Origin: Halorussus limi
Lineage (GTDB): Archaea > Halobacteriota > Halobacteria > Halobacteriales > Haladaptataceae
Assembly (NCBI RefSeq): GCF_023238205.1
Contig: NZ_CP096659.1
Location: 310,001-374,000, forward strand
Length of the DNA stretch: 64,000 nucleotides
Reading direction: 5' to 3'
Notes under the pieces: generated by a model
What the model was told of the DNA's origin: nothing
Database searches by the model: none
What the model saw: the letters and a program-made list of their open reading frames with translations, nothing else
In this document: piece by piece, positions 42,188 to 58,651 of the stretch
Position numbering within the stretch: the first letter of the stretch is position 1
Layout: each line of letters starts with the position of its first letter
Translations under genes and position numbers: made by a program

Positions 42188-43132
42188 ATGTTGAGCGAGT
42201 GGTTCGTCCGCCTGGTCGGTACCGACCCCGTGATACAGGGACTCGCCGGCGGCGTCTTCATCGCGTCGCTGAACACCCTCGGGGCCGCGCTGGTCGTCGT
42301 CTGGCCCGACCCCTCCGACCGCGCCCTCGACGGTGCGCTCGGCTTCGCCGCGGGCGTGATGCTCTCGGCGAGCTTTACGAGTCTCATCCTGCCCGGCATC
42401 GAAATCGGCGGCATCGGTCCCGTGCTGGTCGGATTCGCGCTCGGGGTCCTCCTGCTCGACCGGGCCGACCAGTGGGTGCCCCACATCCACGTCGTCGTCA
42501 CCGGTCGGAGACGGGACTACTCGGACGGAGGACCGACGAGCGACGAGCGACCGGACGAGGCGAACGCGGCAGGTGAAGCGGGCGACGAACTGGCCGACGA
42601 AGCGAAGGCGAGCGCGACGGACCCGGCCCCCAGAATCGAGGAGGACACCGCGACCGGCCGGGAGCGACTCGACCCCGACGACGCCCGGACCGCCTCGGTC
42701 CTGCTGTTCATCGTCGCCATCACGCTCCACAACATGCCGGAGGGGCTGGCGGTCGGCGTCGGCTTCGGGTCGGGCGAGGTCGGCGACGCACTCGCGCTGA
42801 TGCTCGCCATCGGCATCCAGAACGTGCCGGAGGGGCTGGCGGTGGCGGTCGCGGCCGCCAACGCCGGGTTCGGGTCGCTGTTCTACGCGACCGTCGCGGG
42901 CGTCCGGGCGGGTCTCGTGGAGATTCCGCTCGCGGTAATCGGTGCGCTCGCGGTCGGCGTCGCCGGGTCGATACTCCCCTACGCGATGGGGTTCGCTGCG
43001 GGCGCGATGCTGTTCGTCATCAGCGACGAAATCGTGCCCGAGACCCACGCCCGCGGCCACGAGCGCGTGGCGACCCTCGGAACGATGTTCGGCGTCGCGG
43101 TGATGCTGTACCTCGACATCGTGTTGGGGTAG
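42188..43132 (+). CDS. ZIP-family metal transporter
   Basis: Membrane transporter of 314 aa with about eight helices. The metal-site motifs are intact: LHNMPEGLAVGVGF in TM4 and IQNVPEGLAVAVA in TM5. A long hydrophilic, acidic loop of about 75 residues between TM3 and TM4 (SDERPDEANAAGEAGDE) is unusual in haloarchaeal length and has only the HIH motif nearby (WVPHIHVVV). It probably imports divalent metals such as Zn or Fe. Compare the degenerate ZIP-like protein at 35803-36633. Confidence 0.9.
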   Translation: MLSEWFVRLVGTDPVIQGLAGGVFIASLNTLGAALVVVWPDPSDRALDGALGFAAGVMLSASFTSLILPGIEIGGIGPVLVGFALGVLLLDRADQWVPHIHVVVTGRRRDYSDGGPTSDERPDEANAAGEAGDELADEAKASATDPAPRIEEDTATGRERLDPDDARTASVLLFIVAITLHNMPEGLAVGVGFGSGEVGDALALMLAIGIQNVPEGLAVAVAAANAGFGSLFYATVAGVRAGLVEIPLAVIGALAVGVAGSILPYAMGFAAGAMLFVISDEIVPETHARGHERVATLGTMFGVAVMLYLDIVLG

Positions 43133-43175: not shown

Positions 43176-43646
43176 GTGACCGAGCCTCGAATTCGTAGAG
43201 CGACCCCCGAGGACGCCGAGCGACTCGCAGCGGTCTATCGGAGCGCGTACGCCGAGAACCGCCGACTCGGCTTTCCGGCCAAGGCGGAGTCCGCGACCGC
43301 CGAGGAGGTCGCGGAGTGGATGCGGGAGAGTCGGGTCTTCGTCGCCGAAGTCGGAACTGAACTCGTCGGCGGGGTCAGGGTCGAAGCCACCGACCCCGAC
43401 CGGACGAAACTCAGTCGTCTGGGCGTCCGCGAGGACTGGAAGGGCGAGGGCGTCGGCCGAAAACTGCTAGACTGCGCGGAGCGAGCGGTCCGCGACGGCG
43501 ACCGGGAGACCGTGTGGCTCACGACGCCCGACGGACATCCGTACCTCGCCGACCTGTACCGCAGTCGCGGCTACGAGAAGACCGGCGAGTACCCGCTTTC
43601 GTACCGCGAGTACGACGAAATCGTCATGGAGAAACGAGTCGAATAG
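43176..43646 (+). CDS. GNAT-family N-acetyltransferase
   Basis: Protein of 156 aa starting at GTG. The acetyl-CoA loop reads VREDWKGEGVGRKLLDCAER (Q/R-x-x-G-x-G/A pattern) following LSRLGV. N-terminal IRRATPEDAERLAAVYRSAY and the C-terminal YRSRGYEKTGEYPL are typical of the family. It probably acetylates an amine on a small molecule or protein; substrate unknown. Lies 43 bases after the ZIP gene in the same direction. Confidence 0.87.
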   Translation: MTEPRIRRATPEDAERLAAVYRSAYAENRRLGFPAKAESATAEEVAEWMRESRVFVAEVGTELVGGVRVEATDPDRTKLSRLGVREDWKGEGVGRKLLDCAERAVRDGDRETVWLTTPDGHPYLADLYRSRGYEKTGEYPLSYREYDEIVMEKRVE

Positions 43647-43746
43647 TTCGAGTCCGCCGACCGAGACCGCGAAATCGGAACCGTTCAAAGCGTTCACGGC
43701 ACGTCTGCCCGCGTCCCCGGCAGTAAATCGAGTTGAACAGAATAGA

Positions 43747-43757
43747 ATACTTATACT
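43747..43757 (+). promoter_or_regulatory. TATA box before mini-ORF
   Basis: atacttatact is centred 27 bases before an ATG at 43780, the spacing expected for a leaderless start. The main gene's ATG (43821) is 41 bases further on. Confidence 0.65.
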
Positions 43758-43779
43758 TTCTCGCCCGGTCAGGGTCCGT

Positions 43780-43824
43780 ATGAACTGTGCGACGGTCACG
43801 TTCTGTGAGACGAGTCACGCATGA
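43780..43824 (+). CDS. leaderless 14-codon mini-ORF overlapping the repeat gene
   Basis: Reads MNCATVTFCETSHA then TGA. Its ATG lies where the TATA box at 43747-43757 predicts the transcript to start, and its TGA overlaps the ATG of the 134-aa gene as ATGA. It may load ribosomes that reinitiate on the main gene, or act as a regulatory peptide; the two cysteines are of note. Evidence is positional only. Confidence 0.45.
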   Translation: MNCATVTFCETSHA

Positions 43825-44225
43825 CGAACGAGGAGACGGCCGTCACGAGCGACGAGACGGTCACGGTCGCGGGGCGTCTCGTTCGACCGACGCGAGTCGA
43901 GGGCACGGTCCTCGACGTGGACTGGGGGTATCCTTCGTCCATCGTCGTGACCGTCGAGAGCGACGGTGAGCGGTACTACGAGACGTACGAACTCGCGGCC
44001 GTCGAGAGCGACGGTGAGCGGTACTACGAGACGTACGAACTCGCGGCCGTCGAGAGCGACGGTGAGCGGTACTACGAGACGTACGAACTCGCGGCCGTCG
44101 AGCGCGACGAGTTGGACGCGACGGCCGAGAGCGCGGCCGACGGCGAGTGCGTGACGTTCCCCGACGACCCGCCGACGGACGCCGAGGGGCTTCCGACGGA
44201 GATCGTCGCGCCCGAGCGTCCGTAG
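43821..44225 (+). CDS. protein with three identical 16-residue repeats
   Basis: Hypothetical protein of 134 aa. After a 40-residue beta-rich start (TVTVAGRLVRPTRVEGTVLD and WGYPSSIVVT), the unit VESDGERYYETYELAA occurs three times in tandem, encoded by three identical 48-base repeats. A fourth copy begins as VER and diverges. The C-terminus is Pro/Asp/Glu-rich. Without the extra copies the protein would be about 102 aa, a plausible ancestral size for a small beta-domain. No family recognised. Its ATG overlaps the stop of a 14-codon mini-ORF. Confidence 0.75.
   Translation: MTNEETAVTSDETVTVAGRLVRPTRVEGTVLDVDWGYPSSIVVTVESDGERYYETYELAAVESDGERYYETYELAAVESDGERYYETYELAAVERDELDATAESAADGECVTFPDDPPTDAEGLPTEIVAPERP
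43953..44096 (+). repeat. three perfect 48-bp tandem repeats
   Basis: Units at 43953-44000, 44001-44048 and 44049-44096 are identical base for base, including third codon positions. They are in frame within the 43821 gene and encode 16 residues each. The identity suggests recent expansion by slippage or unequal crossover. Confidence 0.95.
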
Positions 44226-44284
44226 CCGGGCAATTCCGCCCGGAACCGCGCAACCCCTAACCCTGCCGAGACCCAAGTGAGGGT

Positions 44285-44704
44285 ATGAGTGAACACGAGG
44301 AGCGAGAGACCCGCGAGGACCTGCCCGAGGACGACGCGGAGTGGCGCGAGCGCCTGAGCGACGAGGAGTACCGCGTCCTCCGAGAGGCCGGGACCGAGCG
44401 CCCCTTCTCGGGCGAACACGTCGACCGGAAAGACGACGGCACCTACGCCTGCGCGGGGTGTGGCGCGGAACTGTTCGACGCCGAGACGAAGTACGACTCG
44501 GGGTGCGGGTGGCCGAGTTTCTACGACGCGGACGACGACCGCATCGAGACCCGACGGGACACCAGCAAGGGGATGGACCGAATCGAGGTGCTGTGCGCGA
44601 ACTGCGGCGGCCACCTCGGCCACGTCTTCGAGGACGGCCCGGAACCGACCGGCAAGCGCTACTGCATCAACTCGGTCGCGCTGGACTTCGACGAAGACGA
44701 GTAA
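44285..44704 (+). CDS. msrB: peptide methionine-R-sulfoxide reductase
   Basis: Cytoplasmic repair enzyme of 139 aa that reduces methionine-R-sulfoxide in proteins. Zinc-site cysteines are in [10 protein letters not shown] and [13 protein letters not shown]. The conserved CGWPSFYD and the catalytic cysteine in [12 protein letters not shown] are intact. Length and start ([16 protein letters not shown] region) are usual. No msrA is present in the window. Single gene following the repeat gene by 59 bases. Confidence 0.95.
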
Positions 44705-55224: not shown

Positions 55225-56178
55225 TCAGGCGAGCGTACCGGTCGGCGGGGCGGTCGCGTTCGGCGGAGCGGTCGCGTTCGGCGGGACGGTCGCGTTCGGC
55301 GGAGCGGTCGCGTTCGGCGGGACGGTCGCGTTCGGCGGAGCGGTCGCGTTCGACGGCGCTGTCAGGTTCGCCGCGCCGGACCCGTTCGCCGAAACGTTCC
55401 CGCTCGGCGGCGCGGTCACGAGTCGCTCGTCCGCGTGGGCCGCCAGCCACTGGCGATACGTCTCGGGGTCCACGACGAACACCGCCGCGCGCATCCGGGC
55501 GTGGCCGTCGCCGCAGAACTCCGTGCAGTAGCCCCGGTATCGGCCGTTCTCCAGCGCCCGGGTCAGGAGCGTCGTGTCGTGGCCCGGAAACACGTCCTGC
55601 TTGAGTCCGAGTTTCGGGACGAACAGCGAGTGAATCACCCTGTTCGCCCTGAGACTCAAGCGCACGTCCTCGCCGCGGGGCAGGACGAGCAGGTTCTGGG
55701 TCGTGACGTTCGCGTCGGGGTAGGTGAACTGCCACCCCCACCGGTAGGCCAGCACGTCGACTCGAACGTCCGGGTTCACCTCCGGTTGCGCGGCCTCTGC
55801 CTCGGGCGTCGGCGAGATGTACGGACTCGCGAGGACGTTGTACGCCGACCACCCGACGAACACGAGGACGATGGCCGTCGCCACGGTCCACGTGACCTCC
55901 AGCGTGGGGTTCTCGGCGGTCGGTTCGGGGTCGTCGTTGTTCCGGAACCGTATCACCGCGTAGACGAGGATGACCTCGACGAACAGCGTGAGCGGTAGCG
56001 CGACGTAGAGCAACTGCACGTTCAGCCTGTCGATGAGATTCCGGTTGACCGACTGGGCGGCGGCGGGCGAGACGGCCCCGAGTCCGAGCGCGACCAGCGC
56101 CGCGCCCGCGAGGACGCCCCGCCGAATCGCGGTGCGTCCCGGCCGTCGAGTCCCGCTCGGTCCCCTCCGTCGACTCAC
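55225..56178 (-). CDS. coxB: cytochrome c oxidase subunit II with sequon-rich C-terminal tail
   Basis: CuA subunit of a heme-copper oxidase, 317 aa from the GTG at 56178 (a GTG at 56205 adds nine residues). A signal-like N-terminus with RRGVLAGAALVALGLG is followed by two helices and the external cupredoxin domain. The CuA ligands are in NRVIHSLFVPKLG (His), YCTEFCGDGHARM (two Cys, Glu backbone, His, Met). The last 65 residues carry nine N-X-S/T sequons, mostly from a six-residue NATxPP repeat. Divergent from subunit I. Confidence 0.93.
   Translation of the reverse strand: MSRRRGPSGTRRPGRTAIRRGVLAGAALVALGLGAVSPAAAQSVNRNLIDRLNVQLLYVALPLTLFVEVILVYAVIRFRNNDDPEPTAENPTLEVTWTVATAIVLVFVGWSAYNVLASPYISPTPEAEAAQPEVNPDVRVDVLAYRWGWQFTYPDANVTTQNLLVLPRGEDVRLSLRANRVIHSLFVPKLGLKQDVFPGHDTTLLTRALENGRYRGYCTEFCGDGHARMRAAVFVVDPETYRQWLAAHADERLVTAPPSGNVSANGSGAANLTAPSNATAPPNATVPPNATAPPNATVPPNATAPPNATAPPTGTLA
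55256..55363. repeat. 18-bp tandem repeat encoding NATxPP units
   Basis: Six units of 18 bases start near 55256, 55274, 55292, 55310, 55328 and 55346, alternating between gcgttcggcggagcggtc and gcgttcggcgggacggtc, the last one degenerate. They encode the repeated Asn-Ala-Thr-Ala/Val-Pro-Pro tail of coxB. Confidence 0.85.
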
Positions 56179-56305
56179 TGCGAGTCCCCCCGAGTTCCCA
56201 TGCACTCGCTCGACAACGGTCGGCGTCAAGAAACTGCCGCCCGTCGAACCCTCCGGCGTCGATACGTCAGACGGCCGACCGCCTCGCCCACCGGTCCGGG
56301 CCTGT

Positions 56306-56315
56306 AGTTTTATCC
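56306..56315 (+). promoter_or_regulatory. TATA box of coxA operon
   Basis: agttttatcc is centred about 29 bases before an ATG at 56340, which starts a 15-codon mini-ORF rather than coxA itself. Confidence 0.6.
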
Positions 56316-56339
56316 CGATTCGTGTCGACGCCTGAGTCC

Positions 56340-56387
56340 ATGCGAGGGGGACGAACGGGGACGCCGACAGCGACGGGGAGACCATGA
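56340..56387 (+). CDS. 15-codon mini-ORF overlapping coxA start
   Basis: Reads MRGGRTGTPTATGRP then TGA. Its ATG is at the predicted leaderless transcript start, and its TGA overlaps the coxA ATG as ATGA. It may feed ribosomes to coxA by termination-reinitiation. Only position supports it; the peptide has no known features. Confidence 0.45.
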   Translation: MRGGRTGTPTATGRP

Positions 56388-58651
56388 ACGGACCTGCAGT
56401 CGAGTTCACCGCGCTCTGTCTGGTCGTGACGAGCGTGGGAGCGCTCGCTCGCCGCGCCAAGCGTCGGGCGCGCGCCGACGGCGGCGAGTATCCCGGCGGC
56501 GAGGGCTGGTTCGACGTCGACTCGCTGACCGAACAAGTCGTCCGGTGGACCACCACGACGAACCACCGCGACATCGGCTTGCTCTACATCGCCTTCGGGA
56601 CGTTCGCGGCGGTCTGGGGCGGCATCGACGGGATGATGATGCGGACCGAACTCCTGACGCCCCCGGCGGATATCTGGTCCGAGACCACGTACAACGCGCT
56701 GTTCACCACGCACGGGCTGACGATGCTGTTCTTCTTCGTGACGCCGGTGTTCTTCGGCATCGGGAACTACTTCATCCCGCTGCTGGTGGACGCCGAGGAC
56801 ATGGCGTTCCCGCGGGTCAACGCCATCGGCTTCTGGTTGCTCCCGCCCGCCCTCCTGCTCGCGCGGGGCGGTCTGCTCTCGCAGGTGTCGGGCCAGTTCC
56901 TCGGCCTGCTCGCGCCCGACGCGCTCTCGAACGTCGTCCGATTCTTCGAGTCGGTCGAAGCGCCGGGTCTGGGGTGGACGATGTACACGCCGCTCTCGAT
57001 AACGGTGGAGAACCCTCAGATAGACCTGCTCCTACTGGGTCTCCACCTCAGCGGCATCGCCACCGTCTTGGGAGCCATCAACTTCGTCGTGACCATAGTC
57101 TACGAGCGCGGGCCGTCCGTCGAGTGGGAGAACCTCGACATCTTCTCGTGGACGATGCTCACCACGAGCGGCATCGTCCTGTTCGCGTTCCCGTTGCTGG
57201 GAAGTGCGCTCGTCATGCTCCTGCTCGACCGCAACTTCGGGACGACGTTCTTCACCGTGGGCGGGGGCGGTCCCCTGCTGTGGCAACACCTCTTCTGGTA
57301 CTTCGGCCACCCCGAGGTGTACGTCATCTTCCTGCCCTCGACGGGGCTGATGAGCCTCATCCTCCCCAAGTTCGCCCGGCGCTCGCTGTTCGGGTTCACG
57401 TACATCGTCTACTCGACGCTGGCCATCGGCGTCCTCTCGTTCGGCGTGTGGGCACACCACATGTTCGCGACCGGCATCGACCCGCGCGTCCGGGCGAGTT
57501 TCATGTTCGTCTCCATCGCCATCGCGGTCCCCTCCGCCATCAAGGTGTTCAACTGGCTGACGACCATCTGGGACGGGACGGTCAGGCTGACCGCACCGAT
57601 GGTCCTCTGCGTGAGTTCCATCGGCATGTTCGTAATCGGCGGCGTCACCGGCGTCTTCCTCGCGGCCATCCCGGTGGACCTGCTCTACCACGGGACCTAC
57701 TACGTGGTCGGCCACTTCCACTTCATCGTGATGGGCATCATCCCGCTGATGATGGTCGCCGCGAGTTACTACTGGTACCCCATCATCACCGGCCGCCTGT
57801 ACGACCGGGAACTCGCGCTGTTCCAGTCGGTCCTGCTGGTGTTCGGTGCCGTCGTCGCGTTCGGGTCGCTCGTCGTCCTCGGGTTCATGGAACTGCCGCG
57901 CCGTCACGCGGTCTACCCCGAGGTGTTCGCGCCGGTTCAGCAGGTGGCCACCATCGGCGCGTTCCTCGTCGGAATCAGCGTCCTGTTGTGGCTCTACAAC
58001 ATGGTCTGGTCGGCGTGGAACGGGACGCCGGTGCGCTCGGCCGACGTGTGGAACCTAAAGGAGACCGAGCAGTTCACCCGCGAGTGGGAGTGGTTCGAGG
58101 AGGAACTCGAACGCAAGTACGCCATCGAACCGACAGAACCCGAGACGACCCGGCCCGCCGCGGCGACCGAACCGGGAGAGGGGTCGCCGCAGGTTCTCAC
58201 CGACATCACCTCCGTCACCGGCGCGATTACCGACAACGCCGCCGTCGCCGCGCTCGGCGGACTCGTCGGCACGCTCCTGCTGTCGGGGGTCCTCTTCCCC
58301 GCGACCATCATCGGCGTGTTCGACCTCGCGGCGTTCGCAGACGTCGCGGAACTCGTCGGCCTGCCCCGGAGCATCGCGCTGGGCTACGGCCTGTTCCTCG
58401 CCGGCGGGATGACGACGTGGGCGCTGTTGTTCGTCGCCTTGGCGTCCTACCTCCCGGGTCGGGTCCTCGTCGTTCGGGGCCTCTCGTACGCCACCATCGT
58501 CTCGGCCGGGTTCATGGTCGCGTTCTACTCGGGGCAGTCCGGACTCGAACTGGTCGGGTTCGTGGTCTTCGCGCTGGTCGCCCACTGGCTCTACGGGTTC
58601 GGTCTCGCCGCGACGATACAGGCGGTGTCGCTGCGAGGTGTCGAGCGATGA
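56384..58651 (+). CDS. coxA: heme-copper oxidase subunit I with extra C-terminal membrane domain
   Basis: Catalytic subunit of 755 aa. Heme and CuB ligands are in FTTHGLTMLFF, FWYFGHPEVYVIFL (His with the cross-linked Tyr), GVWAHHMFATG, and VGHFHFIVMG. K-channel Lys appears in SAIKVFNW and D-channel Asn/Asp in GIGNYFIPLL and DAEDMAFPRVN, so it is A-type. The core ends near residue 570. A further 150 residues form about four helices (from ITDNAAVAALGGLVG), which normal subunit I lacks. Its TGA overlaps the ATG of a 23-codon ORF. Confidence 0.93.
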   Translation: MNGPAVEFTALCLVVTSVGALARRAKRRARADGGEYPGGEGWFDVDSLTEQVVRWTTTTNHRDIGLLYIAFGTFAAVWGGIDGMMMRTELLTPPADIWSETTYNALFTTHGLTMLFFFVTPVFFGIGNYFIPLLVDAEDMAFPRVNAIGFWLLPPALLLARGGLLSQVSGQFLGLLAPDALSNVVRFFESVEAPGLGWTMYTPLSITVENPQIDLLLLGLHLSGIATVLGAINFVVTIVYERGPSVEWENLDIFSWTMLTTSGIVLFAFPLLGSALVMLLLDRNFGTTFFTVGGGGPLLWQHLFWYFGHPEVYVIFLPSTGLMSLILPKFARRSLFGFTYIVYSTLAIGVLSFGVWAHHMFATGIDPRVRASFMFVSIAIAVPSAIKVFNWLTTIWDGTVRLTAPMVLCVSSIGMFVIGGVTGVFLAAIPVDLLYHGTYYVVGHFHFIVMGIIPLMMVAASYYWYPIITGRLYDRELALFQSVLLVFGAVVAFGSLVVLGFMELPRRHAVYPEVFAPVQQVATIGAFLVGISVLLWLYNMVWSAWNGTPVRSADVWNLKETEQFTREWEWFEEELERKYAIEPTEPETTRPAAATEPGEGSPQVLTDITSVTGAITDNAAVAALGGLVGTLLLSGVLFPATIIGVFDLAAFADVAELVGLPRSIALGYGLFLAGGMTTWALLFVALASYLPGRVLVVRGLSYATIVSAGFMVAFYSGQSGLELVGFVVFALVAHWLYGFGLAATIQAVSLRGVER

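Follow-up and report, generated by a model that had tools for sequence, protein, structure and literature searches.

A probable recent tandem triplication, neutral to the frame, within a young chimeric ORF of the haloarchaeon Halorussus

The systems closest to the one analysed here come from three lines of work. In Pyrococcus abyssi, the archaeal polymerases PolB and PolD have been reported to slip in vitro on short direct repeats (PMC4134008). Strains of Haloquadratum walsbyi differ from one another by repeat-mediated deletions and by deletion-coupled insertions, and many of these deletions go with repeats of 4-20 bp (PMC3119063). Finally, the haloarchaea carry composite (chimeric) genes, new genes made from joined pieces of others, for which long residence times have been described (PMC5992828).

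The locus that we describe, for which our searches of an open-access library showed no published account, shares features with each of these systems and departs from all of them: (i) The likeness with P. abyssi lies in short direct repeats, between which the replicative polymerases of archaea can slip; however, the template described in that study (PMC4134008) also had a hairpin, whereas the repeat unit here folds no better than shuffled sequences. (ii) As in Haloquadratum walsbyi (PMC3119063), where many of the deletions have short direct repeats as bounds, different sequences swap at one position between conserved flanks, but here the short repeat appears to bound a gain, in the form of a tandem triplication, instead of a loss, and the remnant left behind appears to have been joined in frame to a newcomer gene. 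(iii) Like the haloarchaeal composite genes (PMC5992828), the reading frame seems to have been built by joining pieces of genes; in contrast to their long residence, the fusion is found in one genome only, and its tail corresponds to residues 209-245 of a 245-residue DUF429 protein, its extreme C-terminus.

Our comparisons lead us to conclude, with good confidence, that a recent, frame-neutral tandem triplication took place inside a young chimeric open reading frame (ORF). The features concerned are listed below in the coordinates of the window, by which we mean the whole stretch of 64,000 nucleotides that was analysed. Here G000 is the source genome, G004 and G017 (Halorussus vallis) carry single-copy relatives of the small gene, and G014 carries an intact DUF429 gene.

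43176..43646, plus strand: GNAT acetyltransferase gene, adjoining the small gene in G000 and G004
43751..43759, plus strand: putative archaeal TATA element TTATACTTT, recognised by its sequence
43780..43824, plus strand: putative upstream ORF of 14 codons, with a stop that overlaps the small gene's start (ATGA)
43821..44225, plus strand: chimeric ORF of 134 aa, made of the small, predicted beta protein, two extra repeat units and a DUF429 3' remnant
43821..44006, plus strand: single-copy-equivalent part of this ORF, 62 aa, with 87% identity to G004 and 69% to G017 over the aligned residues
43951..43958, plus strand: CCGTCGAG, left copy of an 8-bp direct repeat and proposed seed of the array, also found at the unit start in G004
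43953..44096, plus strand: three identical 48-bp units of 16 codons each, recognised by TRF, by exact self-match and against random sequences
44095..44102, plus strand: CCGTCGAG, second (right) copy of this 8-bp repeat, closing the array; in G004 it follows the left copy by 48 bp
44112..44225, plus strand: DUF429 3' remnant with its stop codon, 37 codons, sharing 75.7% of their aa with G014 protein residues 209-245
44285..44704, plus strand: msrB, the right-hand flank, present in 28 of the 28 family genomes searched

A first-pass annotation of this DNA had reported three perfect 48-bp in-frame tandem repeats, identical at every base, and this is what the array proved to be. The units begin at 43953, 44001 and 44049 and agree at all bases (43953-44096, n=3), while the maximal exact run of period 48 spans 43951-44102, a length of 152 bp that corresponds to three copies plus 8 bp. 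TRF gave the array a period of 48, 3.3 copies, 99% matches and a score of 311, the highest of its 16 rows in the window. At distances of 10-100, the longest exact self-match in the window is again the array (104 bases at distance 48); the longest in five first-order Markov sequences modelled on the window was at most 13 bases over the same distances. The array is in frame within the ORF at 43821-44225 on the plus strand and encodes the peptide VESDGERYYETYELAA three times over, preserving the frame as had been claimed. With at least three head-to-tail copies and a period that is a multiple of 3, it has the make-up of an intragenic in-frame repeat of the minisatellite type.

The window holds a second strong array (55242-55417, units of 18/36 bp), which provides the longest exact self-match after that of the 48-bp array. 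On the minus strand it encodes repeated PPNATA/PPNATV hexapeptides, each with an N-A-T sequon, and these repeats lie at the C-terminal end of an ORF of 449 aa (55225-56574) with matches to cytochrome c oxidase subunit II (PF00116, PF02790).

The relatives of the small gene carry one unit each. In G004, the ortholog occupies the same locus, between the GNAT gene and msrB, and encodes 68 aa; the Halorussus vallis relative (WP_253520569.1), of 61 aa, lies at a different location, on a plasmid (NZ_CP100001.1), and only this 61-aa ORF was used, since a longer match in that genome overruns its own stop. The copy number is therefore three in the source genome against one in G004 and one in H. vallis, with one genome per species. 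Because both relatives have a single unit and the three units of G000 are identical, an expansion after the G000/G004 split would be the simplest reading of these sequences, and the recent origin proposed in the first-pass annotation holds; the family is carried by three genomes only, and the polarity of the copy-number change rests on the two relatives.

The family is small. A profile search found the protein in 3 of 18 Halorussus genomes (G000, G004 and G017) at 126-143 bits, using a profile built from the same three sequences, and the alignment of the three contains 34 invariant columns, including GRLVRPT and the RY and ETY residues of the unit, which places them in one family. Across the order, 10 of 392 genomes matched at E up to 0.001, with strong matches only in the same three. 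The other seven were weak (20.8-26 bits, the 26-bit match being that of G388), fell by eye mostly in or opposite other genes, and were not counted. A search of the class (391 genomes) hit these 10 genomes again and no others. A match in G025 (E 2.1e-5, 40%, one TGA) was rejected as a low-complexity frame by eye. Pattern scans of genome contigs and of viral contigs returned no further relatives, nor did tblastn against a phage collection; the scans of genome contigs also failed to return H. vallis and G004, and may miss relatives. The plasmid collection returned only the H. vallis relative. In Pfam, the 134-aa protein had no credible family, the two rows obtained scoring 12.6 and 11.8 bits against cut-offs of 27 and 26.8, and its three NCBIfam rows reached 18.5, 17.6 and 10.7 bits against cut-offs of 425, 100 and 1000. 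Among the single-copy relatives, H. vallis gave no Pfam row and G004 a single one, at 12.3 bits (cut-off 27.6).

What the first-pass annotation called a small protein gene is that only in its N-terminal 62 residues, and its fusion with the 3'-terminal part of a DUF429 gene had been overlooked. Of the 134-aa protein, only the last 37-41 residues can be aligned with the DUF429 proteins that are intact in G014 and G006, the longer match of 41 codons, from 44100, showing 68% identity. In the DNA alignment, the fused ORF and the intact G014 gene end at the same aligned stop codon. The intact G014 protein has 245 residues and a Pfam E of 2.9e-49, with the Pfam domain ending at 229; searched with the 134-aa protein, PF04250 returned nothing up to an E of 1, and it had no match in the genomes G000 and G004, so that the ORF as a whole does not belong to that family. 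In G014 and G006, the gene order is ZIP, a pyridoxamine-oxidase-like gene, an intact DUF429 gene and msrB. G000 and G004 instead have the order ZIP, GNAT, the small gene, the DUF429 end and msrB. G000 thus keeps only the tail of DUF429; in G004 the DUF429 end is shorter, lies 3' of the small gene's own stop and is visible in the DNA alignment only, tblastn at E 1e-3 leaving it unreported. A third order, ZIP, GNAT and msrB with no small gene, is found in G002. The alignment of the tail, the common stop codon and the comparison of loci taken together, we therefore regard the ORF as the small gene fused to a DUF429 remnant, with a joint that lies within a few codons around VER-DE and is ambiguous as to its exact base.

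The varying gene orders across genomes also mean that the stretch between ZIP and msrB turns over. A survey of msrB neighbourhoods (29 loci from 28 family genomes, with up to about 1.5 kb of flank per locus and including a second, divergent msrB match in G013, L052) found an intact DUF429 gene adjoining msrB in two and the small gene in two. Between the ZIP stop codon, which ends at 43132, and the msrB start at 44285, the Halorussus loci compared (L024-L042) vary in content, having a pyridoxamine-oxidase-like gene, DUF429, GNAT, the small gene, or none of these. Among the flanking genes, GNAT, Zip and SelR (msrB) score above their Pfam cut-offs, and a PRC-like gene falls just under its own (19.5 against 21.2 bits).

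The ends of the array point to its origin, through an 8-bp repeat that the first-pass annotation had also passed over. In the single-copy G004, CCGTCGAG stands at both ends of the unit, spaced exactly 48 bp; in G017 the second copy is imperfect. The two boundaries of the G000 array match each other at 14 of 15 bases. Counted over the window at one fixed distance, exact runs of at least 8 bases average 5.85 for distances of 30-69 (range 0-18); at distance 48 there are 10, a count that includes the array. Because such runs are few per fixed distance, a chance 8-bp repeat at exactly this place is unlikely, and the array was probably seeded by the direct repeat already present in the single-copy ortholog. 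Ends of exactly this kind would be expected from replication slippage or from unequal exchange between such repeats. The single-stranded unit forms no hairpin that is unusual against shuffles (z 0.63), and therefore nothing here separates slippage from unequal recombination.

These observations suggest the following course of events. The GNAT gene and the small beta-protein gene would have replaced the pyridoxamine-oxidase-like gene and DUF429, leaving the DUF429 3' end in G000 and G004; the arrangements come from the genome comparison and we infer the direction of change. In G000, the small gene, which lacks the stop codon of its relatives, then came to read in frame into the DUF429 remnant and to end at the DUF429 stop, an outcome that is observed and whose mechanism we infer. 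Judging from the sequence, the 48 bp between the CCGTCGAG copies would have been duplicated, then triplicated, by slipped-strand replication or unequal exchange, and the 8-bp CCGTCGAG would be what remains as the extra partial copy of the array. Fusion and duplication could have occurred in either order. Selection against the triplication would have been slight, since a unit of 48 bp, divisible by 3, keeps the frame and constraint on the gene seems weak. Further contraction or expansion of the array is probably to be expected.

Upstream of the small gene, the three loci share one arrangement. TTATA starts 29, 30 and 29 nt 5' of the upstream ORF's ATG in G000, G004 and G017, respectively, and by the TATA spacing of archaeal promoters this ORF begins close to the expected 5' end of a leaderless transcript. 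In all three loci, an ATG-started upstream ORF of 13-14 codons ends in an overlap with the small gene (GTGA in G017), giving the overlapping stop and start of co-directed ORFs, the ATGA overlap, by which termination-reinitiation is recognised. Longer starts in the same frame are an upstream ATG in G004 (27 codons), which is 5' of the TATA element, and a GTG in G017 (16 codons). When the leaders are letter-shuffled, an upstream ORF of this kind arises in 5-7% of cases for each, and the peptide itself is unconserved: G000 and G004 differ in 9 of its 14 codons, in 8 of these non-synonymously. Coupling of overlapping genes has been shown experimentally with gene pairs of Haloferax volcanii and E. 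coli (PMC6728339), and translational coupling of the small gene from a leaderless-type upstream ORF may be taken as a lead. No RNA family reached its gathering score in 43600-44320, and a scan for Sigma-70 promoters, a type unsuited to archaea, and for terminators found none.

The divergence of the small gene has to be read at two depths. Against G017, 23 of the 39 differences of the G000 gene are at third codon positions (p = 0.0009), with a dN/dS of 0.166/0.759, and for G004 against G017 the count is 22 of 43 (p = 0.012). Because of this third-position excess and of the dN/dS against G017, the plus frame is, by its pattern of substitution, coding by history and under past protein-level selection. 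The comparison of G000 with G004 lacks such an excess, third positions accounting for 4 of 13 differences, and of the 62 codons of the small gene 2 changed synonymously and 8 non-synonymously. The portions of four neighbouring genes that were compared (ZIP, 144 codons; GNAT, 155; msrB, 136; PRC-like gene, 78) together have 67 synonymous and 30 non-synonymous changes, a contrast with the small gene at p = 0.004; compared with GNAT alone, the difference is not significant (p = 0.25). Constraint on the small gene between G000 and G004 thus looks weak, as judged from 10 changed codons, and its low synonymous count itself inflates dN/dS in this comparison. In the DUF429 tail, 14 of 37 codons have changed relative to G014, with a dN/dS of 0.154/0.223, which suggests weak constraint at most.

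Synonymous divergence between G000 and G004 is itself uneven, with dS values of 0.054 for the small gene, 0.090 for GNAT, 0.228 for msrB, 0.295 for the PRC-like gene and 0.36 for ZIP. Since the values of the small gene and GNAT are below those of the flanking genes, this block may have been exchanged between lineages, which would make its history less simple. In window coordinates, 43176-44006 is the part that differs from L002 (G004) by a synonymous divergence of 0.05-0.09, between flanking genes at 0.23-0.36, as would be seen after a later exchange.

It is possible, if rather doubtful, that the whole ORF is a decaying pseudogene that yields no useful protein, the triplication being neutral noise. 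The fusion to the DUF429 remnant, the 2 synonymous against 8 non-synonymous codon changes to G004 and the confinement of the family to 3 of 18 genomes of the genus would all fit such decay; nevertheless, the 134 codons run without stop or frameshift, the TATA-like element and the overlap with the upstream ORF have been kept, and the deeper comparison with G017 retains its third-position bias. This possibility overlaps with a recent triplication inside a young chimeric ORF, which leaves the usefulness of the protein open, and the confidence we place in the one does not exclude that in the other.

Predicted structures bear on what the extra units might do. Modelled alone from its single sequence, the stretch of residues 1-62 forms five strands (mean pLDDT 68), of which the unit (residues 45-60) takes in the last part of strand 4, a turn and strand 5. 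Its description in the first-pass annotation as a beta-strand pair-like segment is to this extent apt, but a beta protein built of repeats finds no support, as copies 2-3 have no confident fold in the full-length model: for the 134 aa, the single-sequence model has a mean pLDDT of 44.8, with residues 59-134 below 50. The whole protein is acidic (35 D/E against 8 K/R). By sequence, the best match among solved structures had an E of 0.29; for the 62-residue model, at its single-sequence mean pLDDT of 68, the best Foldseek E was 0.27 and the best VIA Z 3.3, none of them significant. Resemblance to Sac7d/Sso7d-like or cyanovirin-like proteins is not claimed, no fold match being significant. The likeliest product, going by these models, is a small beta domain followed by an acidic tail in which two spare copies add length, and the added segments most likely lengthen that flexible tail rather than confer a new function.

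We consider it improbable that the array is an adaptive length-variable (VNTR) module, in which each unit contributes a beta strand or turn to tune an interaction of the small protein and copy number is selected. The unit does preserve the frame and does coincide with the end of strand 4, the turn and strand 5 of the predicted domain, and the third-position bias against G017 indicates that the protein was once constrained; but the copy-number variants are limited to one and three in three genomes, copies 2-3 lack a confident fold, and the comparison of G000 with G004 gives a signal of low constraint. A related idea would see in the ORF a new protein at birth, with the DUF429 tail as its C-terminus, the 8-bp repeat multiplying its last strand, a tunable length and translation coupled to the micro-ORF, and this too we hold only as a speculative long shot.

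Assemblies usually collapse short tandem arrays instead of expanding them, which argues against an assembly or sequencing artefact. Although assembly errors are known to arise at tandem repeats (PMC6868369), such an artefact is very improbable here, with the array inside a 3.58-Mb contig of a 4.62-Mb genome in 5 contigs and with an 8-bp direct repeat, already present in G004, that explains the array ends exactly.

The locus represents ordinary genome change by known kinds of event, seen unusually clearly. In practical terms, the array is a possible copy-number marker, and the predicted 134-aa protein calls for caution, part of it being the remnant of another gene. With its single-copy relatives at hand, the recent triplication inside a young chimeric ORF would offer a clean natural example of the reshaping of small haloarchaeal proteins by short direct repeats and by the leftover ends of genes.
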